Assembly (NCBI RefSeq): GCF_008704995.1
Contig: NZ_CP023747.1
Location: 1,762,501-1,826,500, forward strand
DNA: 64,000 bases
Source of the DNA: Streptomyces nodosus
Lineage (GTDB): Bacteria > Actinomycetota > Actinomycetes > Streptomycetales > Streptomycetaceae
Direction: 5' to 3'
Below the pieces are notes generated by a model. The model was given only the letters and a program-made list of their open reading frames with translations. It was not told the DNA's origin and did not search any database. The position numbers were made by a program, and so were the translations under genes. Positions 7,797 through 48,804 of this stretch are shown piece by piece. The stretch's first letter is position 1. Every line of letters starts with the position of its first letter.

Positions 7797-8822
7797 ATGC
7801 TGGGATGTGTGATCCACGGTCAGGGCGACCTGCGGGTCGACGAGCTGCCGGTCCCGGAGCCCGGGCCCGGACAGGCGGTGGTCGCCGTCCGCTACGGCGG
7901 GGTGTGCGGTTCTGACCTGCACTACTGGCGGCACGGCGGGGTCGGGGACTTCCGGCTCCGGGAGCCGATGGTGCTCGGGCACGAGGTGGTGGGCACGGTC
8001 GTCTCGTACGGGGCGGGGGCGTCGGGTCCCGCCGTCGGCACGGCCGTCGCCGTGCACCCGGCCACGCCCTGCGGGGTCTGCCCGGAGTGCGCGAAGGGGC
8101 GGCGCAATGTGTGCCGGGACACCCGCTATCTCGGCAGCGCGGCCCGGTTCCCGCATGTCCAGGGCGGTTTCGCGGCCCGGGTGACGGTCCCCGCCGGCCA
8201 GCTCAGGGCCGTCCCGGCGGGCCTCGCACTGCGCCGGGCGGCGCTGGCCGAACCGCTCGCGGTGGCACTGCACGCGGTGCGGCGGGCCGGACCGGTCGCG
8301 GGGCGGCATCTGCTGGTGACGGGCGCCGGGCCGATCGGCTGTCTGGTGGTGGCGGCCGCGAAGGCGGCGGGCGCGGCATCGGTCACGGTGACGGACCTGC
8401 TGCCCCGGGCACTGGACTTCGCCGCGGCGGCGGGCGCCGACACCCTCGTACGGGCGGACGAGCCGGACGACCCGGGGTGGCCCACCGAGGTCGACACGGC
8501 AATCGAGGCGTCGGGGGTCGCCGCGGGCCTCGACACCTGTGTACGGCTGGTGCGGCGGGGCGGGACCGTGGTGCAGCTGGGCATGCTGCCGCCGGGGCAG
8601 AGCCCCTTCGCGGGGAACCTGGTGGTGAGCCGGGAGATCGAGGTGCGCGGGGCGTTCCGCTTCGACACCGAGTTCGACGAGGCGCTGGAACTGCTCGCCT
8701 CGGAGCCGGGTTTCGACGCGCTGGTGAGCGCGGTGGTGCCGGTCCGGGAGGCGGAGTCGGCGTTCGCCCTCGCCGCGGACCGCAGCAGGTCCTGCAAGGT
8801 GCTGCTGGACTTCGGGGCCTGA
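7797..8822 (+). CDS. idnD: Zinc-dependent L-idonate 5-dehydrogenase
   Basis: The 341-residue medium-chain dehydrogenase has all zinc ligands visible: catalytic Cys37 (GVCGSD) and His62-Glu63 (GHE), and structural cysteines 92, 95, 98 and 106. The nucleotide motif GAGPIG is at 176-181. The overall pattern is that of IdnD (L-idonate to 5-ketogluconate) rather than sorbitol or alcohol dehydrogenase. It follows the SDR gene by 22 bp with GGAAGGGAG upstream of the ATG. It completes an L-idonate to gluconate to 6-phosphogluconate route within one operon. No separate idonate transporter is seen, so the GntP protein probably serves both acids. Confidence 0.85.
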   Translation: MLGCVIHGQGDLRVDELPVPEPGPGQAVVAVRYGGVCGSDLHYWRHGGVGDFRLREPMVLGHEVVGTVVSYGAGASGPAVGTAVAVHPATPCGVCPECAKGRRNVCRDTRYLGSAARFPHVQGGFAARVTVPAGQLRAVPAGLALRRAALAEPLAVALHAVRRAGPVAGRHLLVTGAGPIGCLVVAAAKAAGAASVTVTDLLPRALDFAAAAGADTLVRADEPDDPGWPTEVDTAIEASGVAAGLDTCVRLVRRGGTVVQLGMLPPGQSPFAGNLVVSREIEVRGAFRFDTEFDEALELLASEPGFDALVSAVVPVREAESAFALAADRSRSCKVLLDFGA

Positions 8823-8840
8823 CGGCCTTGCCGCGGCGGG

Positions 8841-8915
8841 GTGTCGCGACCACCCGTGTCGCGACCACCCGTGTCGCGGACTCCGGTACCGCTGGCACCC
8901 GTACCGCTGGCACCC
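8841..8915. repeat. Five 15-bp tandem units in two sub-families
   Basis: Units at 8841, 8856, 8871, 8886 and 8901: two copies of GTGTCGCGACCACCC, one variant, then two copies of GTACCGCTGGCACCC. All begin GT and the four main copies end CACCC. The array lies in the 120-bp gap between the convergent idonate dehydrogenase and flavin dehydrogenase genes. It has no spacers and is not a CRISPR. It looks like slippage-generated filler, though a role in transcript termination cannot be excluded. Confidence 0.8.
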
Positions 8916-8942
8916 CACCGGCGAAGCCCCGGCCCGCCCGGG

Positions 8943-10598
8943 CTATCCCACCGCCCTCGCCGCCGCGCGTCCTGCGGTGCGGCCCGAGAAGAGGCAGCCG
9001 CCGAGGAAGGTGCCCTCCAGGGCGCGGTAGCCATGGACCCCGCCGCCGCCGAAGCCGGCCGCCTCCCCGGCCGCGTACACCCCGGCCAGCGGATCGCCGC
9101 CCTCGGTCAGCACCCTCGAGGACAGGTCGGTCTCCAGGCCGCCGAGCGTCTTGCGGGTGAGGATGTTCAGGCGCACCGCGATGAGCGGGCCCGCCGCGGG
9201 GTCGAGGATGCGGTGCGGGGCGGCGGTGCGGACCAGCCGGTCGCCCAGGAATCTGCGGGCACCGCGGATCGCCGTCACCTGGAGGTCCTTGGTGAAGGGG
9301 TTGAGGATCTCCCGGTCTCGGGCGACGATCTCGCGGCGCAGTTCGGCCTCGTCGATGAGCGGTTCCCCGCTGAGCGCGTTCATGCCGCGCACCAGTGCAC
9401 CCAGGTCCTTCTCGACGACGAAGTCGACACCGTGGTCCATGAACGCCTTGACCGGTGCCGGTACGTCCGCGCGCGCCCGCCCGATCACATCGCGCACCGA
9501 CTTGCCGGTCAGATCGGGGTTCTGCTCGGAGCCGGAGAGCGCGAACTCCTTGCCGATGATCTTCCGGTCGAGCACGAACCAGGTGTAGTGGTACCCGGTC
9601 CTCATGATGTGTTCGAGGGTGCCGAGGGTGTCGAAGCCCGGGAAGAGCGGGACGGGCAGCCGCCGGCCGCGGGCGTCCAGCCAGAGGGAGGACGGGCCCG
9701 GCAGGATACGGATGCCGTGGTTCTCCCAGATGGGGCTCCAGTTGTGGATGCCCTCGGTGTAGTGCCACATGCGGTCGCGGTTGATCAGACGGGCGCCGGC
9801 CTCCTCGGCGACCCCCAGCATCTTCCCGTCGACATGGGCGGGGACGCCGGAGACCATCCGCTCGGGCGGGCTGCCCAGGCGCTCGGGCCAGTGGGCGCGC
9901 ACCAGCCTGTGGTTGCCGCCGATGCCGCCGCTGGTGACGATCACCGCCTGCGCCCTGAGCTCGAAGGCGCCGACGACCGCGCGCCCGCCGGCCCGGCCGC
10001 GCGGCTCGGCGGACGGCTCCAGGATCTCCCCGGTGACGGTGTCCACGGCACCCGCGCTGCGCGCAAGGCCCGTGACGCGGTGACGGAACCTCAGCTGGAC
10101 GAGTCCGCGCGCGACCCCGGCCCGTACCCGTCGCAGGAACGGGGCGAGCACCCCGGGGCCGGTCCCCCAGGTGATGTGGAAGCGGGGGACGGAGTTGCCG
10201 TGCCCGGTGGCGTCGTAGCCGCCGCGCTCGGCCCAGCCGACCACCGGGAAGAAACGTATGCCCTGCCGGTGCAGCCAGGCCCGCTTCTCGCCGGCCGCGA
10301 AGTCGACGTAGGCCTCGGCCCAGCGGCGCGGCCAGTGGTCCTCGGGGCGGTCGAAGGCGGCCGTGCCCATCCAGTCCTGGAGGGCGAGGGCATGGCTGTC
10401 CCTGATCCGCAGCCGGCGCTGTTCCGGTGAGTCGACGAGGAACAGTCCGCCGAGGGACCAGAACGCCTGGCCGCCCAGCGACTGTTCGGGTTCCTGGTCC
10501 AGGAGGATCACCTTGCGGCCGGCGTCCACCAGTTCCGCGGTCGCCGTGAGCCCGGCCAGGCCCGCCCCGATCACGATGACATCAGCGTCGTAGGCCAT
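8943..10598 (-). CDS. FAD-binding dehydrogenase (fumarate reductase/ketosteroid-dehydrogenase-like)
   Basis: The 551-residue flavoprotein starts with a Rossmann GAGLAG motif (12-17) followed by a strand ending in the acidic residue that binds the FAD ribose (LLDQE, 33-37), and ends with the second FAD contact GEAAGFGGGG near 515. The mid-region (WNPI-type SPIWENHGIR, YHYTWFVLD) matches a large actinobacterial group annotated only as FAD-binding dehydrogenase. Sequence alone does not give the substrate; steroid-type desaturation or fumarate-like reduction are both possible. The ATG has GAGAGGA eight bases upstream. It stands alone, with no shared operon. Confidence 0.78.
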   Translation of the reverse strand: MAYDADVIVIGAGLAGLTATAELVDAGRKVILLDQEPEQSLGGQAFWSLGGLFLVDSPEQRRLRIRDSHALALQDWMGTAAFDRPEDHWPRRWAEAYVDFAAGEKRAWLHRQGIRFFPVVGWAERGGYDATGHGNSVPRFHITWGTGPGVLAPFLRRVRAGVARGLVQLRFRHRVTGLARSAGAVDTVTGEILEPSAEPRGRAGGRAVVGAFELRAQAVIVTSGGIGGNHRLVRAHWPERLGSPPERMVSGVPAHVDGKMLGVAEEAGARLINRDRMWHYTEGIHNWSPIWENHGIRILPGPSSLWLDARGRRLPVPLFPGFDTLGTLEHIMRTGYHYTWFVLDRKIIGKEFALSGSEQNPDLTGKSVRDVIGRARADVPAPVKAFMDHGVDFVVEKDLGALVRGMNALSGEPLIDEAELRREIVARDREILNPFTKDLQVTAIRGARRFLGDRLVRTAAPHRILDPAAGPLIAVRLNILTRKTLGGLETDLSSRVLTEGGDPLAGVYAAGEAAGFGGGGVHGYRALEGTFLGGCLFSGRTAGRAAARAVG

Positions 10599-10844
10599 GC
10601 GCCCGTCCTCTCACGGTGGCTGCCGGTCCTCCCGTTGTTACCGACGGGTCAGATCCTTGGGCACGGGGAGTGAGCGCGTCAACCGCCCTCTCCCGGTGCA
10701 CCCGGGCGGCCCGCGATTTCCGGCCCCGCCCCGTCCGGGACGGGGCTCGCGGAGAAGCCGTCAAGCAGGGGCGGGGCCCGGCGGGGGGCGCTACAGTCGG
10801 CGTGATACGCATCCCGTGACTCCGCTGAATCATCGAGGTACAGC

Positions 10845-11738
10845 GTGTCCGTACTGGTTCTGGCTCTCTCCTTGAGCGCGGCTTTCTGTCTGGGCACCGG
10901 ATTCGTGCTGCAGCAGAACGCCGCCCAGCAGGCACCGCTGAGCGACTTCCTCTCCTTTCGGCTGCTGCTGGACCTGATGCGGATGCCGCGCTGGCTCGGC
11001 GGCCTCGCTCTGATGGTGGCCGGCATGGGTCTCAGCGCCGTCGCACTGGCCCACGGCGAGATCTCCCTGGTCGAGCCGCTGGTCGCCACCAATCTGCTGT
11101 TCGCGCTGGCCGAGTCCCGCCGGCAGACCAGACAGTCCGTGGGCCGCCAGGGCTGGGCCGGTCTGGCGCTGCTCGCCGGCGGGGTCACCGCCTTCATCGT
11201 CGCGGGCCGGCCCCGGGGAGGCGATGCGGTCACCGATCCCCTCCGGCACTGGCTGATCATCGGGTTGACGGTGGGTCTGGCGCTGCTGCTGACGACCTGC
11301 GCCAAGAAGTCGCGTCTGATCATCGGACCGGTACTTCTCGGGCTGGCGGCGGGACTGCTGTACGGGGTGCAGGACGCGCTCACCCGGGTCAGCGGTCAGC
11401 GCTTCGCGGCGGGCGGGTGGAGCGAGTTCGTCATCGGCTGGCAGCCGTACGCCGTGCTGGTGCTGGGGGTGACGGGCCTGGTCCTGGTGCAGAGCGCCTT
11501 CGAGACGGCACCGCTGCGGATGTCCCTGCCCGCGCTCACCGCGGCCCAGCCGCTGGCCGGGATCCTCTGCGGGGTGGGCTTCCTGGGTGACCGGCTGCGC
11601 ACCGACACCGGCGCGCTGGCGTGGGAGGCCTGGGGGCTGGCGGCGATCGTCTGCGGCATCGTGCTGCTGGGGCTGCACCCGGCCATGCCCCGGGGCCTGG
11701 GGGAACCGCAGCGGGAGAGGGATCTGCAGCCGAGATGA
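10845..11738 (+). CDS. DMT-superfamily transporter
   Basis: The 297-residue protein has nine or ten predicted membrane segments in a drug/metabolite transporter arrangement, with internal repeat character (one half to about residue 150, then a second half). The HGEISLVEPLVATNLLFAL stretch near 65-83 and the second-half equivalent FETAPLRMSLPALTAAQPL near 225 are typical of the EamA/NIPA-like group common in Streptomyces. The transported substrate is unknown. The GTG start at 10845 gives the N-terminal membrane segment directly. It appears monocistronic. Confidence 0.8.
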   Translation: MSVLVLALSLSAAFCLGTGFVLQQNAAQQAPLSDFLSFRLLLDLMRMPRWLGGLALMVAGMGLSAVALAHGEISLVEPLVATNLLFALAESRRQTRQSVGRQGWAGLALLAGGVTAFIVAGRPRGGDAVTDPLRHWLIIGLTVGLALLLTTCAKKSRLIIGPVLLGLAAGLLYGVQDALTRVSGQRFAAGGWSEFVIGWQPYAVLVLGVTGLVLVQSAFETAPLRMSLPALTAAQPLAGILCGVGFLGDRLRTDTGALAWEAWGLAAIVCGIVLLGLHPAMPRGLGEPQRERDLQPR

Positions 11739-11827
11739 GCGAGATGGGGAGGCCCGGGCGTGGGTACGGCGGAGCCGAGGACCGTCCGCCGGTGGGCCGC
11801 GGGGCCGGGGGCTGCTTGGATGGGGCC

Positions 11828-12346
11828 ATGAGTGCCGCCGACGAACTCCTCGACATCGTGGACGAGAACGACAAGGTCATCGGGCAGTCGCCCCGTGGTG
11901 AGGCCTATGCCCGCCGGTTGCGCCACCGATGTGTGTTCATCGAGGCGCGGGACCCCGAGGGCCGGATCTTCGTCCATCGCCGCACCCCGACCAAGCTGGT
12001 CTTCCCGTCCATGTACGACATGTTCGTCGGCGGGGTCGTCGGCGCCGGGGAGACCTATGACGACGCGGCCCTGCGGGAGGCCGAGGAGGAACTGGGCGTC
12101 AGCGGACTGCCCCGGCCCGAACTGCTGTTCAAGTTCCGGTACGACGACGCCGTCGGCCGGTCCTGGTGGTCCTCGGTCTACCAGGTGCGCTGCGAACTGC
12201 CCGTGGACCCCCAGGCCGAGGAGGTGGCCTGGCACGACTTCCTGCCGGAGGACGAACTGGAGCGCCGGCTGCCCGACTGGGAGTGGGTCCCGGACGGCCT
12301 CGCCGCCTACCGGCGGCTCACCGAGCAGCGCCGCGCCGCCCGCTGA
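11828..12346 (+). CDS. NUDIX hydrolase (YfcD-like)
   Basis: This hydrolyses nucleoside-diphosphate-linked substrates. The full Nudix box G-x5-E-x7-REAEEELGV is present at about residues 66-88 of the 172-residue product. The N-terminal ELLDIVDENDKVIG segment resembles the YfcD/isopentenyl-diphosphate-isomerase-like NUDIX group. The true substrate cannot be assigned. The frame is open further upstream, but the ATG at 11828 is the family start. A TTGGAT eight bases before it suggests a leaderless or near-leaderless transcript. Confidence 0.88.
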   Translation: MSAADELLDIVDENDKVIGQSPRGEAYARRLRHRCVFIEARDPEGRIFVHRRTPTKLVFPSMYDMFVGGVVGAGETYDDAALREAEEELGVSGLPRPELLFKFRYDDAVGRSWWSSVYQVRCELPVDPQAEEVAWHDFLPEDELERRLPDWEWVPDGLAAYRRLTEQRRAAR

Positions 12347-37966: not shown

Positions 37967-38773
37967 TCAGGCCGCGTTGGTCAGGACCGGCAGATAGCCG
38001 CCGGACTGGCCGGCCGCGGTCGGGTGGTAGGACTCGGTGATGTTCAGCAGGTTGACACTGTGCAGCCAGGCGTCCCCGGAGCACAGCTCATGGCCGGTGA
38101 AGGTGGTGCGCACGTCACCGAAGGTGAAGCCGTGGTCGGCGGCGCGCTTGGCGATGGCGGCGTCCATGTAGTCGGCGGCGCCGTTGATGGCCGACCGCTT
38201 GGTCTCGGACAGGCCGAGGCAGAGCGTGGTGCCGAGCTTGTAGAAGCGGGGGTAGCCGAGGACGACCACACGGGCCGAGGGAGCCTTGGACCTGATCGCC
38301 GAGTAGACGGCGTCGAGCCGGCCGGGCAGGGTCGAGTCGATGAACGCCCTGGCCGTCGCGATCCGCGACAGACAGGTGCTGTCGGAGTCCAGCACACAGG
38401 ACGTCATGACGTCGGAGAAGCCGGCGTCGTTGCCGCCGACGCTGATGGAGACGAGGCTCGTGGAGGAGTTGAGGGCACCGAGCTGGTTGTTGATCACGTC
38501 GGTGGTGATCGCGCCCGAGCAGGCCATGAAGCTGAACGAGGCGGGGGCCTTGGCGGCCTGCCACAGATACGGGTAGGCCTTGGTGCTGCGGTTGCAGGAG
38601 CCGCTGGAGCTGATGTAGCTGCCGGCGCCGACGCCGGAGGAATAGGAGTCACCGAGCGCCACATAGCCGGTGACCGCGGCGGAGGACGCGTGCGCCGCGG
38701 CAGCCCCGGTGAGGGCCATGCCGACGGCAAGGAAGAGCGAAGTCAGGTACGCCGCGAGTCGGTTACGTCTCAT
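37967..38773 (-). CDS. Secreted SGNH/GDSL lipase
   Basis: The 268-residue precursor has a signal peptide (cleavage after AHA near 29) and an SGNH hydrolase domain: block I GDSYSSG (nucleophile Ser43), block III SVGGNDAGF, and block V SYHPTAAGQ with the catalytic His. Six cysteines match the disulfide pattern of the Streptomyces extracellular lipase group (S. rimosus type). It hydrolyses lipid or ester substrates outside the cell. The ATG at 38773 is preceded by AAGGGAGG; an upstream in-frame start at 38860 lies before the ribosome site and is rejected. Confidence 0.92.
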   Translation of the reverse strand: MRRNRLAAYLTSLFLAVGMALTGAAAAHASSAAVTGYVALGDSYSSGVGAGSYISSSGSCNRSTKAYPYLWQAAKAPASFSFMACSGAITTDVINNQLGALNSSTSLVSISVGGNDAGFSDVMTSCVLDSDSTCLSRIATARAFIDSTLPGRLDAVYSAIRSKAPSARVVVLGYPRFYKLGTTLCLGLSETKRSAINGAADYMDAAIAKRAADHGFTFGDVRTTFTGHELCSGDAWLHSVNLLNITESYHPTAAGQSGGYLPVLTNAA

Positions 38774-39068
38774 GGAACCTCCCTTGAGCAGGATCTCTGC
38801 GACAACTGTGGTAGCAGCTACGCGTGTTGACTGGAAGTGTCCATGCCAAATCTGTTTCAATATTCACCGATCACTGACGCCTCGTTATGCCCCTCGACAT
38901 GCGGACGACGGCTCCCGACGGCGGCTCGCACCGGCGCACGCCCACGCCGGAACGCAGGTTTGAAGCGCCCCCGGAACCGATACGTCCCGCTTCCGCGTCT
39001 TGACGGCCCCCCGCCCGCTGCGCGACATTGAAGCCCGGCATCCGGCGCTTCAGGGGGCAAAGTCGCCC

Positions 39069-39488
39069 ATGCAGACCATACGTATCAAGCCACCTTCATC
39101 AGGCGGTGACGGGCGGTCGGGACAGGATCCGGGGAGGGACCTGTTTCCCCTGTTCGCCGGTGCGGCCGTCGCCGTCGCGGGGGTCGGTGCGATCCTCGCG
39201 CTCAGCGACGCCGACTCACCGCTGCGCGGCCCGTTCACGCTGTTCTTCCTGCTCGCCGCGCCGGCCACGGCCCTCGGAGCCGCCCTGCGGGGCCTGGACC
39301 CCTTCGCCCGCACGGTGGTCTCCGTCGCGGGAGCGATCGCGGCCGATCTTCTGGTCGCCCAGGGCATGTTGGCGGTGCACCGTTGGTCGGTGGGCGGCGG
39401 GATCGTCGCCGTGGCCGTGCTCAGTTCCCTCGTTCTCCTGCTGGTTCCGGTACGGCGACGGCGCCGTACGGCGAGAAGACAGGCCTGA
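39069..39488 (+). CDS. Small multi-spanning membrane protein of unknown function
   Basis: The 139-residue product has four hydrophobic segments (about 27-45, 57-72, 82-98, 108-128) after a soluble N-terminus and ends with an Arg-rich tail. It has no recognisable domain. It lies five bases before the acyltransferase gene on the same strand and may be part of the polysaccharide locus. The ATG at 39069 is chosen as the first giving a sensible soluble N-terminus; ribosome binding upstream is weak. Confidence 0.62.
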   Translation: MQTIRIKPPSSGGDGRSGQDPGRDLFPLFAGAAVAVAGVGAILALSDADSPLRGPFTLFFLLAAPATALGAALRGLDPFARTVVSVAGAIAADLLVAQGMLAVHRWSVGGGIVAVAVLSSLVLLLVPVRRRRRTARRQA

Positions 39489-39492
39489 AGAC

Positions 39493-40587
39493 GTGGACAT
39501 CAGCGTGTACCGTCCCGGCGAACTCAGCTCCGCCGACCGGGCGGCATGGACGGCTTTGCAGTCCAAGGCCCATCTGAACGGCTCACCCGAGCTGGCGAAC
39601 CCGTTCCTGTCGCCCGAGTTCGCGCTCGCCGTGGGCCGGACCAGACGCGGCGTACGGATCGCGGTGGTGCGCGAGGAGGGGGAGCCGGCCGCGTTCTTCC
39701 CGTTCCAGCGAACGGCCGCCGGCGTGGGACGGGCCGTGGGACTCGGCGTGTCGGACTGCCAGGGCCTGGTGCACCGGCCGGGCTTCGCCTGGGACGCACA
39801 GGACCTGCTGCGGGCCTGCGGGCTCGCCGTCTGGGAGTTCGACCATCTGGTGGAGGGCCAGGCGCCGTTCGAGGCGGGCGCCTCCGGCACCTTCCCGTCC
39901 CCGGTCATGGACGTCGACCAGGGGTACGACACCTATCTTCGGCAACTGCGCGGGCAGTCGCCGAAGTTCACCCGTACGACGCTGGCCAAGGAGCGCAGGC
40001 TCGGGCGGGACGCCGGGGAGGTGCGCTATGTCCACGACGAGCGCGATCCCGCCGCCCTGCACACGCTGATGAGATGGAAGTCCGCCCAGTACCGCAGAAC
40101 CGGGCGCAGCGACCGCTTCGCACACCCCTGGATCAACCAGCTGGTGCACCAGCTCCACCACACCCGTTCCCAGCCGTTCGCGGGGGTCCTGTCGATGCTC
40201 TACGCCGACGGACGCCCGGTCGCCGCACACTTCGGACTGCGCACCGAGAGGGTGCTGGCCTGCTGGTTCCCGGCGTACGACCCGGCGTTCGCCAGATATT
40301 CGCCCGGGCTGGTCCTGCATCTGCGGATGGCCGAGGCGGCCGCCGCCGACGGCATCGCCTATCTGGATCTGGGGCGGGGCCAGAAGGAGTACAAGGACTC
40401 CCTGAAGACACGGGAACTCTTCGTGTCCGAGGGGTGGGTGACCCGGCGTCACCCGGTCGCGCTGGGGCACCGGGCGCGCCGCGCCCCGGTCCGGGCGCTG
40501 CGCAATGCGGTGCTGTCCCGGCCGGAGCTCTTCGAACCGGCCGACCGGATCCTCAAGCGGATGGGAAAAATCCGCTCGAGGCGTTGA
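39493..40587 (+). CDS. FemAB/CelD-like GNAT acyltransferase
   Basis: The 364-residue protein has the double-GNAT layout of the CelD/BcsL-like group found in polysaccharide loci: an N-terminal FLSPEFALAVG segment, then a GVLSMLYADGRPVAAHFGL strand pair near 235-255 and YLDLGRGQKEYKDSL near 293. These enzymes acylate sugars or polymers, or add amino acids to precursors. The start is a GTG four bases after the preceding stop; ribosome binding could come from CTGAAGAC. It precedes a structured leader and the glycosyltransferase operon, so a role in modifying the polymer is inferred. Confidence 0.78.
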   Translation: MDISVYRPGELSSADRAAWTALQSKAHLNGSPELANPFLSPEFALAVGRTRRGVRIAVVREEGEPAAFFPFQRTAAGVGRAVGLGVSDCQGLVHRPGFAWDAQDLLRACGLAVWEFDHLVEGQAPFEAGASGTFPSPVMDVDQGYDTYLRQLRGQSPKFTRTTLAKERRLGRDAGEVRYVHDERDPAALHTLMRWKSAQYRRTGRSDRFAHPWINQLVHQLHHTRSQPFAGVLSMLYADGRPVAAHFGLRTERVLACWFPAYDPAFARYSPGLVLHLRMAEAAAADGIAYLDLGRGQKEYKDSLKTRELFVSEGWVTRRHPVALGHRARRAPVRALRNAVLSRPELFEPADRILKRMGKIRSRR

Positions 40588-40953: not shown

Positions 40954-41772
40954 ATGAGTTCTGTTCTGCGCCCTGCGGCTTCCGACCGAGATCCTTCCGC
41001 CCAGGGGAAGTACCGGCCCGTCTCCTCCCATATGGCGATCGCACCGCCGGTGAGCGTGGTGATCCCCGCCATGAACGAGGCGGAGAACCTCCCCTATGTC
41101 TTCAAGACCCTTCCCGACTGGATCCATGAAGTGGTCCTGGTCGACGGCAACTCCACGGATGACACCGTGGAGGTCGCGCGTGCGATGTGGCCCGGGGTGA
41201 AGGTCGTCGGGCAGCGCGGCAAGGGCAAGGGCGACGCCCTGATCACCGGCTTCGCGGCCTGCACCGGCGACATCATCGTGATGGTCGACGCGGACGGCTC
41301 CGCGGACGGCCAGGAGATCGTCAGCTATGTCTCCGCGCTGGTGTCCGGCGCGGACTTCGCCAAGGGCTCGCGGTTCGCCAACGGCGGCGGGACCTCCGAC
41401 ATGACACCGATCCGCAAGCTGGGCAACCGGGTGCTCTGCGCGATCGTCAACGCCAAGTTCGGCGCCCGCTACACCGATCTGTGCTACGGGTACAACGCGT
41501 TCTGGCGGCACTGCCTGGACAAGATCGATCTGGACTGCACCGGCTTCGAGGTCGAGACCCTGATGAACATCCGGGTGGTCAAGGCCGGGCTCAAGGTCCA
41601 GGAGATCCCCAGCCACGAGTATCTGCGCATCCACGGCGCCAGCAATCTGCGGGCGGTGCGCGACGGGTTCCGGGTGCTGAGAGTGATCCTCCAGGAGCGC
41701 TCCAACCGGCGTGCGCTGCGCCGGCGTCCGCGGGCGGTGGCGCTCGACACGGTCCGGGGAGAGCTGTCTTGA
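40954..41772 (+). CDS. Family 2 glycosyltransferase (dolichyl-phosphate-mannose-synthase-like)
   Basis: The 272-residue product has a GT-A fold: SVVIPAMNEAENL near 34-46, VDGNSTDDT near 65 and the metal-binding VDADGS near 110. The overall architecture is that of polyprenol-phosphate sugar synthases, so it may start the polymer or make a lipid-linked sugar donor. Its last bases overlap the TTG start of the second glycosyltransferase (TTGA). First gene of a four-gene overlapping operon. Confidence 0.88.
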   Translation: MSSVLRPAASDRDPSAQGKYRPVSSHMAIAPPVSVVIPAMNEAENLPYVFKTLPDWIHEVVLVDGNSTDDTVEVARAMWPGVKVVGQRGKGKGDALITGFAACTGDIIVMVDADGSADGQEIVSYVSALVSGADFAKGSRFANGGGTSDMTPIRKLGNRVLCAIVNAKFGARYTDLCYGYNAFWRHCLDKIDLDCTGFEVETLMNIRVVKAGLKVQEIPSHEYLRIHGASNLRAVRDGFRVLRVILQERSNRRALRRRPRAVALDTVRGELS

Positions 41773-42764
41773 GAGACCCGGACATCTCCGTGGTGATCTG
41801 CGTCTACACCGAGGACCGCTGGGAGGACATCCTCGCGGCGGTCGCCTCGGTGCGGGCGCAGTCCCGGCCGGCGCGCGAGACGCTGCTGGTCGTCGACCAC
41901 AACGACATCCTGCGGGAACGGCTGGCCGGGGAGTACAAGGAGGCCGGGGACGTCCGGGTGCTCGCCAACGCGGGCCCCCGCGGTCTGTCCGCGGGCCGCA
42001 ACACCGGGGTCGCCGCCTCCCGCGGCGAGGTCATCGCCTTCCTCGACGACGACGCCGTGGCCGAGCGCGACTGGCTGAGGCACTTCGCCGAGGGGTACGA
42101 GGATCCCCGTGTCATGGCCGTCGGCGGCCGGACCATGCCGATCTGGGCGTCGGGACGCCGGCCGGCCTGGTTCCCGGAGGAGTTCGACTGGGTGGTGGGC
42201 TGCACCTACCGGGGGCTGCCGCCCGGCCGGGTCCGGGTGCGCAATGTGCTCGGCGGCAACGCCTCCTTCCGCCGCGCGGCGTTCGAGGCCGCGGGCGGCT
42301 TCGCCACGGGCATCGGGCGCGACGGCGACCGGCGTCCGCTGGGCTGCGAGGAGACCGAACTGTGCATCCGTCTCGCCCGGGCCAGGCCCGACGCGATCCT
42401 GCTGATCGACGACCGCGCCGTGATCCACCACCGGGTGCCGGCACCCCGCGAGCAGTTCGCCTACTTCCGCACCCGCACCTACGCCGAGGGCCTCTCCAAA
42501 GCGCTGGTGGCGCGCAGCGTCGGCGCCGGCAAGGGCCTGGAGTCGGAGCGCCGCTACACCACCCGGGTGCTGCCCGCCGGGGTGGTCCGGGGGCTGCGGG
42601 ACGCCGTGCTGGCCCGTCCCGGCGGGGCGGGCCGGGCGGGCGCGATCGTCACCGGAGTGCTCACGGCCGCCGGGGGGTATGTGCTCGGGAGTGTGCGGGC
42701 CCGCAGGGGCGGCACGGCGTTCTCCGTGGTACGGATCCCGGACGGCGAGGGGGACGCCGCATGA
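41769..42764 (+). CDS. Second family 2 glycosyltransferase, TTG start
   Basis: The 331-residue product starts with DISVVICVYTEDR, has the DDD metal-binding element FLDDDAVAERDW near 92-103, an acceptor-side WFPEEFDWVVG segment near 134 and a GNASFRRAAFEAAGGF catalytic-loop element near 165. The C-terminus carries one or two hydrophobic segments. The only start compatible with the domain boundary is the TTG inside TTGA, overlapping the previous stop codon; the long open frame upstream is out of phase shadow coding. It probably extends the chain begun by the first enzyme. Confidence 0.87.
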   Translation: MRDPDISVVICVYTEDRWEDILAAVASVRAQSRPARETLLVVDHNDILRERLAGEYKEAGDVRVLANAGPRGLSAGRNTGVAASRGEVIAFLDDDAVAERDWLRHFAEGYEDPRVMAVGGRTMPIWASGRRPAWFPEEFDWVVGCTYRGLPPGRVRVRNVLGGNASFRRAAFEAAGGFATGIGRDGDRRPLGCEETELCIRLARARPDAILLIDDRAVIHHRVPAPREQFAYFRTRTYAEGLSKALVARSVGAGKGLESERRYTTRVLPAGVVRGLRDAVLARPGGAGRAGAIVTGVLTAAGGYVLGSVRARRGGTAFSVVRIPDGEGDAA

Positions 42765-43561
42765 GCGACCAGCGCGTGCCGATTCTCATGTACCACTCGG
42801 TCGCGGCGGAGCCCAGCCGGGCGACGCGCGCCCTGTCGGTGGCCCCGGAGGCCTTCGCCCGGCAGATGGAGCGGATCGTGGAGACGGGCCGCACTCCTGT
42901 CACCACCGCCGAGCTGGCGCGCAGTTGGCGGGAGGGCGCACCGCTGCCCGAACGGCCCGTCCTGATCACCTTCGACGACGGCTACGAGGGGGTGCACCGG
43001 CACGCCCTGCCGGTGCTCGCCCGGCACGGTTTCGTCTCCACGCTGTTCGTCTCGACGGGGTGGATCCGGGGCGCCCACGACACCGGGGGCGGCCTGGACA
43101 CCATGCTCGACTGGGACCAGATCCGCGCCCTCGCGGAGGCGGGGGCCGAGATCGGCGGGCACAGCCACACCCATCCGCAGCTGGACCAGCTCGACGACGA
43201 GACGCTCCGGTCCGAGCTGGTGCACTGCCGGGAGATCATCGCCGATGAACTGGGCGGCTTCCCGGTCTCGTTCGCCTACCCGTACGGCTACTCCAGCCGC
43301 CGGGTGCGGCGCATGGTGCGCGAGACGGGCTACCGCCAGTCCCTCGCCGTCGGCAACGGTCTCGCCCGCCGCCGGCAAGGCCCCTATGCGCTGCGGCGGG
43401 TCACCGTGCGCCGCAGCACCGGGGCCGAGGAGTTCGAGCGGCTGCTCCGGGGCCGGGGTATCGCTCTCCGCTTCGCCGGGGACCGCGCCCTGACCAAGGG
43501 GTACGCCATGGTCCGAAGAGCACGACAGGTCCGGGGGAAGGCCATCCGTTCCCGTGTCTGA
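42761..43561 (+). CDS. Polysaccharide deacetylase (NodB homology)
   Basis: The 266-residue protein has the NodB motifs: TFDDGYEG near 69-76 (catalytic base and metal Asp), HSHTHPQL near 129-136 (metal histidines) and FAYPYGY near 168. It removes acetyl groups from N-acetylated sugars such as poly-GlcNAc. No clear signal peptide is visible, suggesting a cytosolic or membrane-anchored role before export. The ATG overlaps the preceding stop (ATGA), and its own stop lies eight bases into the next gene. Confidence 0.88.
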   Translation: MSDQRVPILMYHSVAAEPSRATRALSVAPEAFARQMERIVETGRTPVTTAELARSWREGAPLPERPVLITFDDGYEGVHRHALPVLARHGFVSTLFVSTGWIRGAHDTGGGLDTMLDWDQIRALAEAGAEIGGHSHTHPQLDQLDDETLRSELVHCREIIADELGGFPVSFAYPYGYSSRRVRRMVRETGYRQSLAVGNGLARRRQGPYALRRVTVRRSTGAEEFERLLRGRGIALRFAGDRALTKGYAMVRRARQVRGKAIRSRV

Positions 43562-46500
43562 CACGACGACCACAGCCCAGGACGACCAGGCCGCACCCGA
43601 GGTACCAGAGCGGTCCCGCCGCCGTCTGCGCCTGCCCACCGGCGGGGGCGGCGGCAACCAGCTGTTCCGCAACGCCTATGCGCTGATGCTGAACACCGGT
43701 GTCTCCGCGGTGCTCGGCCTCGGCTACTGGCTGGTGGCCGCCCGGTACTACTCCGACTCCGCGGTCGGCCAGGGCTCGGCCGCGATCGCCGCGATGAAGC
43801 TCCTCGCCGGGCTCACCGCGGTGACGCTGACCGGCGCCCTGGCCCGCTTCATCCCGGTCGCGGGCCGGGCCACCGGCCGGCTGATCTTCCGTACGTACGC
43901 GGGCAGTTCGGTGGTGGTGGCGCTCGCGGCGGGCGTCTTCCTGCTGACCCTGGACGTCTGGGGGCCCTCGTACCGCTTTCTGCACGGGCCCCTCAACGGG
44001 CTCGGGTTCGTCGTGGCCGTCGTCGCCTGGAGTCTGCTCACCCTCCAGGACGGGGTGCTGACCGGGCTGCGCAGCGCACTGTGGGTGCCGGTGGGCAACA
44101 CGGTGTTCTCGGCGGTGAAGCTGGCACTGCTCATCGGGCTCGCCGTGGCCATCCCGACGACCGGTGTCTTCGTCTCCTGGGTCGCGGCCATCGCCACCTC
44201 CGTGATACCGCTCGGCTGGCTGGTGTTCCGGCGCCTGGTGCCCCGGCACGTCAAGGCGACCGAGGACCGCGCCAGACCCCCGTCGCCCAAGGAGATCGGG
44301 CGGTTCCTGGCCGGCGACTACACCGGCTCGCTGTTCTCGCTCGCCGTGGTCTATCTCGTCCCGGTGATCGTGGCCGCGCAGGTGGGCTCCGCGGACAACG
44401 CGTACTTCTACATCACCACCACCATCGGCGGCACGACCAATCTGCTCGCCATCAACATGGGCGCCTCGCTCACCGTCGAGGGCTCCCACGATCCGGCGCG
44501 GCTCGCCGCCAACACCCGGGCCGCGCTCCGACGCATGGCCCGGATCATGCTGCCGGTGAGCGGGCTGCTGTTCGTCGGCGCGCCCTTCATCCTGAGGGTG
44601 TTCGGCCAGGGATACGCCGACGCGGCGACCCCGCTGCTGCGCTGGTTCGCGGTCGGCGCGCTGCTGAGGGTGGTCATGGAGACCTACTTCGCGGTGCTGC
44701 GGGCGCAGAGCCGCACCTCGGGACTCGCCTATCTCCAGGGTCTGCTCTGCGTTCTGGTGCTCGGACTCACCCTGCTGCTGCTCCCCCGCATGGGGCTGAC
44801 CGGAGCGGGGGTCGCGGAGATCTCCAGCCTCGCGGTGATCGTGGCGATCGCCGCTCCCCGGCTGTACACCGTGATGCGCGCCGCCCCGGCGGACGCCGTG
44901 CCCGAGGACACCGCACCGGACGGGGACCTCGCCGACCTGGGGCCGGCCGAGGTGCCGGCGCCGAGGAGCGGCCCGTCCTGGGCGAGGAAGCCCGACGCCG
45001 AGACACTCGCGCTCGGCACCCGCCCGAGCACGGGAAACCCGGCGGCAGCGGTCGGCATGGAGGGCGCGGAGGCGGAGAGCGTCACGGAGGAGCAGGCCGG
45101 GGCGGGCGCGGCAGAGGCGGTGTGTTCCGCCGCACCCTCCCTGCGGGAGCGGCTGCGGCCCACGCGCGTCGGGCTGCTGCTCGGCGGTCTGCTGGCCACC
45201 GCGCTGCTGTTGTACTGGGTGCCCGCGCTGAGGCTCGACGACGGCTCCCTCACCCGGATGGGCGGACTGGGCCTGATCTCGGTGCTTCCGCTGCCGACCC
45301 TGGCGGGGGCGGCACTGCTGGTCGTGGTCTTCGCGACGCTGCTGGGGCGGGTCCGGGAGTCCCGGGGGCTGCTGCTGGTCACCCTGCTGGCCACCGTCGT
45401 CTCCCTGCATGCGCTGCCCGCGGTGATCGAGACCGAACCGCGGTTCCCCACGGCCTGGCAGCACCTCGGCTTCCTGGACTACATCGACCGCACCGGGTCG
45501 GCCGTACCCGACCTGGACGCCCGCTGGAGCTGGCCGGGCTTCTTCGCGGCGGCCGCGTTCATGGCGAAGGCCTGTGGGGTCACCGATCTCACCGAGGTCA
45601 TCCGCTGGTGGCCGCTGACCATCCAACTCCTCTATCTGGCACCGATGTTCCTGCTGCTGCGATCGCTGCGGGCGAGCTGGCGCGCCAAGTGGACCGGGCT
45701 ATGGATCTTCGTCCTCGGGAGCTGGGTCGGCCAGGACTACTTCTCCCCGCAGGGCTTCACTTATCTCTTCTATCTGGTGTTCGTGGCGATCCTGCTGGTC
45801 TGGTTCCGGGCGCCCCATGTCATCTGGACGAAGGCGCGCCCCGGCGAGGCCGAGGTGGAGCCGGCCGGGCGCGGTCAGCGGGCCGTGCTGCTGCTGGTGC
45901 TGATCGGCCTGTATGCGGCGAGCGTGCCCGCCCATCAGCTCACCCCGTTCGTGATGCTGGGTGTGCTCGCGGTGCTCGTGCTGGTGGGCCGCTCCGAACT
46001 GCGCGGGCTGCCGCTGCTGTTCGCGGTGCTGGTCGCGTTCTGGGTCGGTTTCATGGCCGAGCCGTACTGGTCCGGGCACTTCGACGAGCTCTTCGGCGGG
46101 GTCGGCGGCGTCGGCAGCAATGTGTCGACCTCCGTCTCCGGCCGCATCCAGGGCGGCGACTCCACGCACCAGCTGGTGCTCTACGCACGGGTGCTGCTCG
46201 CCGGCACGGTGCTGGGCCTGGCCTGCTGGGGCTGGTGGCGGCGGCGCGAGCACGGATACCGCGAGCGGTCGCTGCTCGTGCTCACCTTCGTGCCGTTCCT
46301 GGGCTTCGGCATGCAGTCGTACGGCGGTGAGATGGCCCTGCGGGTCTTCATGTTCGCCCTGCCGGGCGCGGCGCTGCTGGCCGGACTCGCTCTCTTCCCC
46401 CGTACCGGGGTGACGGAGGAGGAGCGCGGCAAGGACCGGACGAGCCTCGCCCCGCTCGCGGCGCTGCTGGCGGGCCTGCTGCTGATGGGCGGCTTTCTGG

Positions 46501-47174
46501 TGGCCCGCTGGGGCAATGAGCCCTTCGAGCGGATCCGCCCCGGCGAGGTGGCCGCCATGGACTTCGTGTACGCCCATGACGACCCGACCGTACAGCTGCT
46601 GTGGCTGAGCAGCGACCCCGTCGAGAACGTCACTCCGGCGATGCCGTGGGGCGCCAGGGACATGGAGAAGGTCCAGTACGTACCGACGCTCGCCCCCGTC
46701 GATCCGGTGCTGGTGTCGGGGCTGGTCACCTCGCTCCAGGACGCGGGCCCGAACTCGTATCTGATGATCAATGCGAGTCAGGTGACCTATCTCCGGATGG
46801 ACGTCGGCTACTCGGCGACCTGGGAGTCACGGCTGATCAGGCATCTGGACGAACATCAGGAGCTGGAGAAGGTCCTGGTCAACGACGATGTGACGCTGTA
46901 TGCGCTGCGCGCGCAGCCCACCGGACGGGTGGCCGGACCTGATCCGGGGCCGATCGGCCCCCGGGTGACCTGGACGCCGTGGTCGGTCGTCGGCGGGCTC
47001 TCCGCGGTGGCCCTGGTGCTGTTGCTCACGGCGCGTGAGGTGGTGCGGGTCGCGATGCGGCCGAGCGTGCGTCAGCTGCGGTTGCTTCAGTCCGGCCTCT
47101 GGTTCTCCCTGCCGCTGATGGCGGTGCTGCTGGCCTCGCTGGTGCAACGGTTCCTGACGCTGGGCAACGGCTGA
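43554..47174 (+). CDS. Giant membrane protein: flippase domain fused to a second polytopic domain
   Basis: This 1206-residue protein has two parts. Residues about 25-445 look like a Wzx/MurJ-type polysaccharide flippase with 12-14 helices (SAVLGLGYWLVAARYYS; NLLAINMGASLTVEGSHD). Then a soluble Ala/Glu/Pro-rich linker (about 450-540) leads to a second polytopic region (about 540-1195) with roughly twelve helices and large loops, including RWSWPGFFAAAAFMAK and YFSPQGFTYLFYLVFVA, which resembles GT-C glycosyltransferases or Wzy polymerases. The GTG start overlaps the deacetylase stop by 8 bp. Flipping and polymerising lipid-linked units in one chain is the inferred role. Confidence 0.8.
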   Translation: MSDTTTTAQDDQAAPEVPERSRRRLRLPTGGGGGNQLFRNAYALMLNTGVSAVLGLGYWLVAARYYSDSAVGQGSAAIAAMKLLAGLTAVTLTGALARFIPVAGRATGRLIFRTYAGSSVVVALAAGVFLLTLDVWGPSYRFLHGPLNGLGFVVAVVAWSLLTLQDGVLTGLRSALWVPVGNTVFSAVKLALLIGLAVAIPTTGVFVSWVAAIATSVIPLGWLVFRRLVPRHVKATEDRARPPSPKEIGRFLAGDYTGSLFSLAVVYLVPVIVAAQVGSADNAYFYITTTIGGTTNLLAINMGASLTVEGSHDPARLAANTRAALRRMARIMLPVSGLLFVGAPFILRVFGQGYADAATPLLRWFAVGALLRVVMETYFAVLRAQSRTSGLAYLQGLLCVLVLGLTLLLLPRMGLTGAGVAEISSLAVIVAIAAPRLYTVMRAAPADAVPEDTAPDGDLADLGPAEVPAPRSGPSWARKPDAETLALGTRPSTGNPAAAVGMEGAEAESVTEEQAGAGAAEAVCSAAPSLRERLRPTRVGLLLGGLLATALLLYWVPALRLDDGSLTRMGGLGLISVLPLPTLAGAALLVVVFATLLGRVRESRGLLLVTLLATVVSLHALPAVIETEPRFPTAWQHLGFLDYIDRTGSAVPDLDARWSWPGFFAAAAFMAKACGVTDLTEVIRWWPLTIQLLYLAPMFLLLRSLRASWRAKWTGLWIFVLGSWVGQDYFSPQGFTYLFYLVFVAILLVWFRAPHVIWTKARPGEAEVEPAGRGQRAVLLLVLIGLYAASVPAHQLTPFVMLGVLAVLVLVGRSELRGLPLLFAVLVAFWVGFMAEPYWSGHFDELFGGVGGVGSNVSTSVSGRIQGGDSTHQLVLYARVLLAGTVLGLACWGWWRRREHGYRERSLLVLTFVPFLGFGMQSYGGEMALRVFMFALPGAALLAGLALFPRTGVTEEERGKDRTSLAPLAALLAGLLLMGGFLVARWGNEPFERIRPGEVAAMDFVYAHDDPTVQLLWLSSDPVENVTPAMPWGARDMEKVQYVPTLAPVDPVLVSGLVTSLQDAGPNSYLMINASQVTYLRMDVGYSATWESRLIRHLDEHQELEKVLVNDDVTLYALRAQPTGRVAGPDPGPIGPRVTWTPWSVVGGLSAVALVLLLTAREVVRVAMRPSVRQLRLLQSGLWFSLPLMAVLLASLVQRFLTLGNG

Positions 47175-47216: not shown

Positions 47217-48638
47217 TCAGCGCCGCAGCCACTTCACCTCGTACCCCTTCATGGTGAACCGTCTGCCGTCGACCAGGGCGCTGATCGGCCGGTCGAGGGT
47301 GTTCACCACGAGGACGGTCCTGCCGGTGGCGAGGACACGGACGTTGGGGACGTCGTCCTCGGCGACCCGCACCGTCGCATACGTCGTGCCCGGCGGGAAC
47401 TCCCGGGCGAAGCGGGACACCAGGTCGTACAGGGGAAGCGCCCGGCCGCCGCCGGAGGTGTCGGTCGGCGTCCACAGGCAGCCCGGGCAGTCCGGTCCCG
47501 TCTTGTTCTCGGGGTTCCAGTAGAAACCGGAGGAGGCGCCGCCCTTGGCCATGGCGATCATCCCGGCGGCCTGCACGGCGACGCGGTGCTTCTCGCTCCA
47601 GTCCTTGCGGTCGTCATTGCCGTCGGCGGGCTCGACGTAGTACTCGGCCCACCACAGCGGAAGATCACCGGTCCGCCGGCGGACCCACTCGCCCACCGCG
47701 GTCAGCTTGTCGGTGGCGGCGAACTCGTCGGGCAGCAGTTCGTCGTCCTTGGTGTAGCTGGAGCCGTCCACCACGACGAAGTCGGCGCCCGCCTTGTGGG
47801 TGTTCCAGTAGTCGAAGGCGTCCAGGACCCGCTGGTCCATGGCGCCCCAACTGCCGCGCAACGCCGTGGAGGCGTTCTCCTTCCGCCGCGGGCCGAGGCT
47901 GTCCATGACGAGATAGGGGCCGCCCACCTTGATCTGCGGGTCGACCTGTTTGAGCGCCCGGTGGACCAGGTTGTACAGCTCGGTGTAGCCCTCGTAGTCC
48001 CAGCGGCCCTCGGAGTTGTTCCAGAAGCCCTTGAACTCGTTCCAGACGATGAAGTGGCGCACATCCGGATAGCGCCGGGCGACGGTCGCGGCGAGGGCCG
48101 CGAAGTCCTTGTAGTGGGCGCGGGTCGGGGCGGTCTCCAGGAAGGACTGGCTCCAGTCGGTGGTGCCGGCGCCCGCCCTGCCGCCCTTCATCCAGTCCGG
48201 GGCGCAGCACAGGGTGACCACCGGGGTCCCGCCGGACGCCCGGACGAAGTCGATGCGGCGGTCCATCTCCTCGAAGTCGTAACGCCCCTCGACCGGCTCC
48301 GGATTGCCCGCGCCCCAGCCCATGATGTGCTGGTTCTGCGGCAGCCCGGTCCCGGACAGCAGCCGCTCCACCCGCCCGGTGGCGCTGCCGGGGCCCTCGT
48401 CGGCGCTGTACTGCGTATGGGTGAAGCCCCAGCCGACGTCCGGTCGTGTCGTGCGGGGCGGGGTGGCCGGTGTGCCGTGCACCTTGTCGCCGTCGGGCGA
48501 GGTGCCCCTGGTGCTCGGTGGACTGCCGGGCACTAGCTGGATCAGGGTCACCACCAGGGCCAGAGCGGCCGCGCCCACGCCGAGCAGTGCGGTGAGGCGC
48601 CACCGCCGTGCCCCCGGATCCCACCCATGACGTCGCAT
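47217..48638 (-). CDS. GH39-like glycoside hydrolase, membrane-anchored or secreted
   Basis: The 473-residue protein has an N-terminal membrane/signal helix (about 17-38) followed by a TIM-barrel with clan-A features: acid/base Glu in FIVWNEFKGFW near 200 and a probable nucleophile Glu in LWWAEYY near 335. The N-terminal WGFTHTQYSADEG and the PCW-type disulfide-rich segment near 405 resemble GH39 xylosidase/iduronidase-like enzymes. It is convergent with the polysaccharide operon, 43 bp from its end, so it may trim or release the polymer. The start is the ATG at 48638; TTG three codons earlier is possible. Confidence 0.78.
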   Translation of the reverse strand: MRRHGWDPGARRWRLTALLGVGAAALALVVTLIQLVPGSPPSTRGTSPDGDKVHGTPATPPRTTRPDVGWGFTHTQYSADEGPGSATGRVERLLSGTGLPQNQHIMGWGAGNPEPVEGRYDFEEMDRRIDFVRASGGTPVVTLCCAPDWMKGGRAGAGTTDWSQSFLETAPTRAHYKDFAALAATVARRYPDVRHFIVWNEFKGFWNNSEGRWDYEGYTELYNLVHRALKQVDPQIKVGGPYLVMDSLGPRRKENASTALRGSWGAMDQRVLDAFDYWNTHKAGADFVVVDGSSYTKDDELLPDEFAATDKLTAVGEWVRRRTGDLPLWWAEYYVEPADGNDDRKDWSEKHRVAVQAAGMIAMAKGGASSGFYWNPENKTGPDCPGCLWTPTDTSGGGRALPLYDLVSRFAREFPPGTTYATVRVAEDDVPNVRVLATGRTVLVVNTLDRPISALVDGRRFTMKGYEVKWLRR

Positions 48639-48804
48639 CAGGGGCAACCCTAACGGCCGTGGACGTCCCGGGACAGATTCCGTCGTACGACAGCCCGATG
48701 ACGGGACGTACCGGATGGACCGGGAGGGCGGGGCACAGCCGACACACCCGGCGCACCACGGGAAACCGGGTGCATGGGACGGCCCCGTGACAGATCATGT
48801 CGGC

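Follow-up and report, generated by a model that had tools for sequence, protein, structure and literature searches.

We identified in the window (the whole stretch of 64,000 nucleotides of Streptomyces nodosus DNA that was analysed) a gene encoding, in one chain of 1206 residues, a predicted MOP-superfamily flippase followed by a predicted GT-C glycosyltransferase. We hypothesize that the GT-C half receives a polyprenyl-linked saccharide from the flippase half and would polymerise it or transfer it into an exopolysaccharide, and we assign to this reading a probability of about 0.57. It is built on four features that the computation shows, namely the single chain, the two predicted folds, a conserved operon and repeated switching between fused and adjacent-gene forms. 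The gene, its parts and its neighbours are the following:

37967-38860, reverse strand: GDSL/SGNH esterase near the operon, with a relative in 8/8 fused Streptomyces loci viewed (L081-L088)
39000-39488, forward strand: small predicted membrane protein without Pfam match, preceding the FemAB-like gene
39478-40587, forward strand: FemAB/BioF2-like acyltransferase (PF13480, Acetyltransf_6), start uncertain
40954-41772, forward strand: GT2a, nearest NCBIfam model AglJ (147 bits against a cut-off of 325)
41769-42764, forward strand: GT2b, nearest NCBIfam model AglG (220 bits against a cut-off of 440), start uncertain (TTG overlapping the GT2a stop)
42761-43561, forward strand: CE4 polysaccharide deacetylase (PF01522), in ATGA overlap with GT2b
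43554-47174, forward strand: flippase/GT-C fusion, 1206 residues, GTG start at 43554, TGA stop at 47172-47174
43659-44888, forward strand: predicted MOP-superfamily flippase half, residues 36-445 (AlphaFold2 model and structure comparison)
44889-45143, forward strand: low-complexity acidic linker, residues ~446-530, predicted to be cytoplasmic
45144-47171, forward strand: predicted GT-C glycosyltransferase half, residues 531-1206 (AlphaFold2 model and structure comparison)
47217-48647, reverse strand: convergent GH39-like hydrolase, distantly similar to beta-xylosidases and PslG

The initial annotation had proposed an in-frame fusion at 43554-47174, and translation of the window indeed yields a single chain of 1206 residues with no internal stop. 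Its GTG start overlaps the CE4 stop by 8 bases, and since CE4 and GT2b, and probably GT2b and GT2a, also overlap, we read these genes as one coupled operon. The third-position GC content is 0.84-1.00 in all 50-codon blocks up to residue 1200, so that the coding bias continues unbroken across the junction between the two halves. None of the in-frame ATG/GTG codons of the linker is preceded by a well-placed Shine-Dalgarno sequence (the nearest, AGAGG, lies 2 nt 5' of GTG codon 523), in agreement with the earlier remark that no internal start with a ribosome site was visible. An ortholog of the GT-C half (E<=1e-100) is present in 27 out of 81 Streptomyces genomes. In 26 of these 27, the open frame that contains it spans 1192 codons or more, the remaining copy sitting on a contig of 3,091 bp. 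We thus reject a frameshift or an assembly artefact as the origin of the fusion, since the long frame is conserved across Streptomyces. The fusion is confirmed as a real, single 1206-residue protein. Relatives at E<=1e-5 were found in 52 of 296 genomes sampled from the class.

The N-terminal half was modelled with AlphaFold2 (residues 1-470) from an alignment of 53 out of 67 flippase regions, near-duplicates and locus L162 having been removed by hand, and the model reached a pLDDT of 88.9 and a pTM of 0.86. In the VIA-align comparison, which covered the chains ranked by Foldseek, the best matches were WzxE (Z 32.6 over 390 residues) and MurJ (Z 31.5 over 388), which supports the MurJ/Wzx-like N-terminus suggested by the initial annotation. 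The flippase region ends near residue 442 and the model shows a MOP fold with 12 transmembrane helices, if its 64-residue helix 68-131 is counted as two. Pfam family Polysacc_synt (PF01943) scored 19.4 bits against this half, below its 28.2-bit cut-off, and 28.5 bits against a relative in locus L073; among 18 flippase family members, eight matched Polysacc_synt, two MatE and one MurJ. A first alignment had been assembled from 17 hand-picked regions and that of the window, and a PDB profile search with the flippase half returned one row only, EDS1, with E 0.76. Since the MOP fold is common to MATE transporters, and the best of these occupies row 1 of the Foldseek list, ahead of WzxE in row 2, and reaches a VIA Z of 30.4 against 32.6 for WzxE, the N-terminal half could be imagined as a MATE-like exporter of small molecules rather than a saccharide flippase. 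We regard this as very improbable, given that WzxE and MurJ fill the first three VIA rows, that Polysacc_synt outnumbers MatE (8/18 versus 2/18) among the relatives, and that the operon is glycan-related. The assignment of the N-terminal half as a MOP flippase is therefore supported by the model, and this half would flip a lipid-linked saccharide.

The second half was modelled over residues 519-1206 from 67 out of 80 GT-C regions (near-duplicates and L162 again removed by hand), with a pLDDT of 92.3 and a pTM of 0.93. The model has two extra N-terminal transmembrane helices, a GT-C core from residue ~598, an alpha/beta domain at ~996-1118 and two extra C-terminal transmembrane helices. The first 39 VIA rows (Z 19.3-10.9) are all GT-C enzymes or complexes containing one, assuming that STT3 is the matched chain in three translocon entries, and row 40 drops to Z 6.6. 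The highest scores belong to yeast oligosaccharyltransferase (OST, 19.3), AglB (18.8), human OST (16.4) and Pmt4 (15.7), followed by ArnT (15.4), PglB (15.4), AftA (14.7), EmbB (14.1) and AftD (13.1). Foldseek placed ArnT first (E 3.2e-5, TM-score 0.41), with three rows at E<=0.001. Residues ~530-1206 are thus predicted to adopt the GT-C transmembrane fold. A transporter or signalling fold, which the initial annotation had named as the outcome that would speak against its proposal, was rejected, as none appears in the VIA list at a comparable score.

At the level of sequence families, this half has zero matches in Pfam and NCBIfam at E<=10, and Wzy_C (PF04932) is accordingly absent from it, which argues for a GT-C enzyme rather than one of the Wzy_C type. 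Among 23 GT-C relatives scanned against Pfam, single matches to DUF2079 (E 0.00078), Wzy_C (E 0.0032) and ASTER were obtained, and a second half of the Wzy_C type was rejected. The initial annotation had called the second half GT-C/Wzy-like; the GT-C part of this description is borne out by the models, while the Wzy-like part finds no support in the sequence. A PDB profile search with the GT-C half gave nothing, and the whole fusion protein matched no family in Pfam and NCBIfam (E<=1), PHROGs (E<=0.01) or the PDB sequences, apart from one chance PDB row with E 0.3. This flags what seems to be a GT-C family carrying no Pfam or NCBIfam name for the window protein, with loci in Actinomycetota and Chloroflexota, and also in Deinococcus and rhizobia.

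The general base of GT-C enzymes is an acidic residue in the first outer loop. Beyond a first alignment of 22 hand-picked regions and that of the window, an alignment of 68 rows revealed conserved positions in the GT-C half:

45516-45518, forward strand: D655, in the predicted first outer loop (DARWSWPGFF), candidate catalytic Asp, acidic in 67/68 rows
45723-45752, forward strand: WVGQDYFSPQ motif, with W724, Q727, D728, Y729 and Q733 invariant in 68/68 rows
45933-45935, forward strand: H794 of the HQLTP motif, invariant in 68/68 rows
46320-46331, forward strand: YGGE motif, with Y923 and E926 invariant in 68/68 rows

R930 is likewise invariant in all 68 rows. We take D655 as a candidate catalytic aspartate by analogy with GT-C enzymes in general, and the conservation of the acidic residues D655, D728 and E926 speaks for the hypothesis stated at the outset.

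The two halves are joined by a stretch rich in Ala, Pro and Gly and acidic in character (residues 443-537, 7 Lys/Arg versus 16 Asp/Glu), after which a second polytopic region with large loops begins, just as the initial annotation had described an acidic linker followed by a second membrane region with large loops. According to the predicted topology, twelve transmembrane helices, a cytoplasmic linker and two further transmembrane helices would bring the first GT-C loop to the outer side of the membrane, where GT-C enzymes require it.

The surroundings of the gene point to glycan synthesis. The gene order FemAB, GT2a, GT2b, CE4, flippase, GT-C is common to Streptomyces and to Nonomuraea and its relatives. 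To follow it more widely we used a sample of 80 loci from a genome contig scan, ordered by their similarity to a first sequence that was itself distant; these loci were scored with family profiles and are independent of those used to build the domain profiles (L061-L100). Among the matches listed, GT2a and GT2b are both present in 53/80 loci and the GH39-like hydrolase in 45/80, and this hydrolase, with its distant PslG similarity, seems to point to a polymer. The AglJ and AglG scores of GT2a and GT2b lie below the equivalog cut-offs, these being still the nearest NCBIfam models, and the same pair of nearest models recurs in the Deinococcus and Shinella loci. The window's genome contains no match to the initiating enzyme Bac_transf (PF02397), which is compatible with a polyprenyl monophosphate carrier, but has three PF00953 enzymes elsewhere. 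At 3.97 Mb it also carries a separate PF01943 gene and, on the other strand, a Wzy_C gene, the two matches being ~1.6 kb apart, so the fusion operon is not its only candidate pathway of this kind.

Polymerisation by the GT-C half is itself a guess from context, because this half is no closer to any polymerase than to protein and lipid glycosyltransferases. It may instead be a transferase for side branches or acceptors, comparable to ArnT, AglS or an oligosaccharyltransferase, that attaches a single flipped sugar or oligosaccharide to a polymer, teichoic acid, lipid or protein already in place. The best structural rows (OST, AglB, Pmt4, ArnT and PglB) agree with such a role, as does the resemblance of GT2a and GT2b to AglJ and AglG of haloarchaeal N-glycosylation, in which AglB transfers the glycan to protein (PMC3871713). 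Nevertheless, the acceptor is not fixed by a shared fold, no other polymerase candidate was found among the eight neighbouring proteins scanned, and the operon is accompanied by a deacetylase and a GH39-like hydrolase, as exopolysaccharide loci are; we therefore consider an acceptor transferase unlikely, and favour synthesis of an exopolysaccharide.

The initial annotation had also called for a survey of fused and split homologues, and both forms were found. Among the matches listed, 25 of the 80 loci are fused, 36 (L162 included) carry both on one strand and at most 2.5 kb apart, seven have a flippase that is no same-strand neighbour of the GT-C gene, and in 12, some of them at contig ends, the flippase was not seen. 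In the Streptomycetaceae (Streptomyces, Streptantibioticus and Actinacidiphila), the fused form is found in 20/21 loci among the matches listed, this count being that of the window's ortholog group, with a second, unfused Streptomyces cluster lying outside it. The exception is L162, from a draft of Streptomyces himastatinicus, scored automatically as split-adjacent; we read it as a frameshift, since its flippase frame overlaps that of GT-C and the frames of GT2b and CE4 are broken too, and left it out of the tree-based fusion counts. The other five fused loci among the matches listed belong to Microtetraspora fusca (L150), Actinomycetospora (L153 and L174), a Frankiales MAG (L115) and a Ktedonobacteraceae MAG (L179), the flippase part of the last one being cut by a contig end. 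Where loci of Nonomuraea, Streptosporangium and Sphaerisporangium are long enough to show it, the gene order is unchanged but the genes are separate and adjacent, and the Nonomuraea flippase is an open frame of its own with 462-487 codons, so that the N-terminal half does not belong to a known large multidomain flippase family, the other outcome that had been named as contrary to the proposal. Actinomadura loci have separate genes as well, with FemAB and GT2a swapped in order.

The 40 loci from which the domain profiles were built (L061-L100, whose counts are for this reason not independent) contain 42 GT-C genes: 13 fused, three of these in triple fusions, 12 adjacent, 13 non-adjacent and four with no flippase in view. 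In the triple fusions (L079, 8513-12478; L093, 5301-11084; L094, 8224-13950), flippase, GT2b and GT-C share one open frame of 1322-1928 codons, and in L093 and L094 up to ~480 more open-frame codons extend upstream of the flippase. The nearest model to the GT2 of the triple fusions in L079 and L094 is AglG.

We also noticed several further arrangements. In the second Streptomyces cluster, the GT-C relative is close to the flippase relative and on the other strand in L073 and L089-L091; in L071, L077 and L092 the two share a strand. The flippase relatives (57-59% identical; L073, 12520-15294, reverse strand; L090, 6957-9353, forward strand; L089 and L091) have a C-terminal extension of ~260-360 residues, in which a Pfam scan of L073 and L090 found no match. 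In L075, one 1164-codon open frame (8648-12139) carries a GT2b-like domain upstream of the GT-C relative. Outside Actinomycetota, the set of GT2a, GT2b, flippase and GT-C occurs unfused on large plasmids of Deinococcus aetherius (L184, in which the GT-C protein is annotated as "hypothetical protein"), Shinella (L181) and Ensifer (L182).

The fusion state has changed repeatedly between fused and adjacent-gene forms. In a 121-row GT-C tree, from which 16 rows with no flippase seen and L162 were left unlabelled, fused and triple forms taken together against split forms require eight changes over the 104 labelled rows; two-part fused rows alone require seven, five of them forced by well-supported branches (L069 and L097, with two GT-C genes each, were labelled from the closer pair). 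A 54-row tree of the core clade, calculated with a mixture model, requires four changes, two of them forced by well-supported branches, and rejects a single fused clade with an AU p of 0.00055, a value weakened by the fact that the 54 of 121 rows were chosen by hand after the first tree had been seen. Long branches are a further reason to read the trees with caution, and the numbers of changes do not tell gain from loss.

This pattern bears on whether the halves work on the same molecule. As relatives often keep flippase and GT-C as neighbouring genes, flipping and sugar use are probably linked, and such coupling is supported by the adjacency in split forms together with the repeated change of fusion state; lineages in which the two genes lie apart speak for a looser link. 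In 47 split pairs, the GT-C gene is in the same relative frame in 40 and its start overlaps the flippase stop in 29, which is modest evidence of coupling, weak when taken alone, since a TGA stop in that frame needs just an A or a G before it and many of the pairs are near relatives. The halves might also use different lipid-linked substrates, with the fusion fixing merely 1:1 expression or co-localisation: the linker, of low complexity, varies in length between 15 and 298 residues among 35 two-part fused proteins (median 139), which implies no fixed interface, and both the adjacent, often overlapping split pairs and the separated genes of some lineages would fit. The triple fusions argue against it, as they put an AglG-like GT2, the would-be enzyme of the same saccharide, between the two halves, and we judge different substrates to be quite improbable.

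Returning to the hand-over of one saccharide, we infer from the features described above its substrate, its flipping, its transfer or polymerisation and the direct passage between the halves. GT2a and GT2b would assemble a short saccharide on a polyprenyl carrier at the inner face of the membrane; trimming by the CE4 enzyme and acylation by the FemAB-like one may modify the glycan. The MOP flippase at the N-terminus would carry the lipid-linked saccharide outward, where the tethered GT-C half, with its active site outside, would take it as donor and extend the growing chain. The flexible cytoplasmic linker would hold flippase and transferase together, so that the flipped intermediate is consumed at once. 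Whether flippases hand over to the outer-face enzyme or release their cargo into the membrane is debated for polysaccharide, teichoic acid and glycoprotein pathways. If flipping and sugar use are linked, the fusion is a new arrangement for a common pathway, and a natural single chain of flippase and GT-C, with split and triple forms, makes direct hand-over testable via the linker.

Like the Wzx/Wzy-dependent pathway, the fusion has a MOP flippase followed by an outer-face enzyme that would use the flipped lipid-linked unit; unlike it, this enzyme is of the predicted GT-C fold instead of Wzy_C, and is on the same chain. MprF/LysX also combines a synthase and a flippase in one chain, an analogy of logic alone, as its domains and substrate are unrelated to those of the fusion. 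A search of the PMC literature, which leaves subscription journals mostly outside and does not prove priority, found no paper on a flippase joined to a GT-C enzyme. In the exopolysaccharide cluster imp of Actinoplanes missouriensis, the GT-C-like ImpE (Alg6_Alg8 superfamily) was proposed as polymerase beside the Wzx protein ImpC (PMC12691653), and this assignment, itself inferred, is also found in PMC13390465. ImpC and ImpE are separate proteins, accompanied by three GT4 and one GT2 enzymes, and the likeness of ImpE to the GT-C half is one of description only.

The haloarchaeal Agl pathway (AglJ, AglG, AglR/Agl15, AglB and AglS) shares with the window the nearest models of GT2a and GT2b, and in both a flippase and a transferase of the GT-C fold act downstream or are predicted to do so. 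The Haloferax pathway uses AglJ and AglG to extend a glycan carried on dolichol phosphate, has Agl15 and AglR as proposed flippases, and relies on AglB for transfer of the glycan to protein (PMC3871713). We tentatively suggest, as a possibility that we hold to be less likely than not, that the operon is a bacterial counterpart of Agl, making an exopolysaccharide on polyprenyl monophosphate, in which flippase and a GT-C polymerase of an undescribed family form one channelled protein in Streptomyces, with the last cytoplasmic glycosyltransferase on the same chain in some actinobacteria; synthesis, flipping and polymerisation would then be united in one polypeptide in the latter. The window differs from Agl in its bacterial host, in GT2a and GT2b scores under the equivalog cut-offs and in the fusion of flippase and GT-C, and its CE4, FemAB and GH39 genes suggest a polysaccharide.
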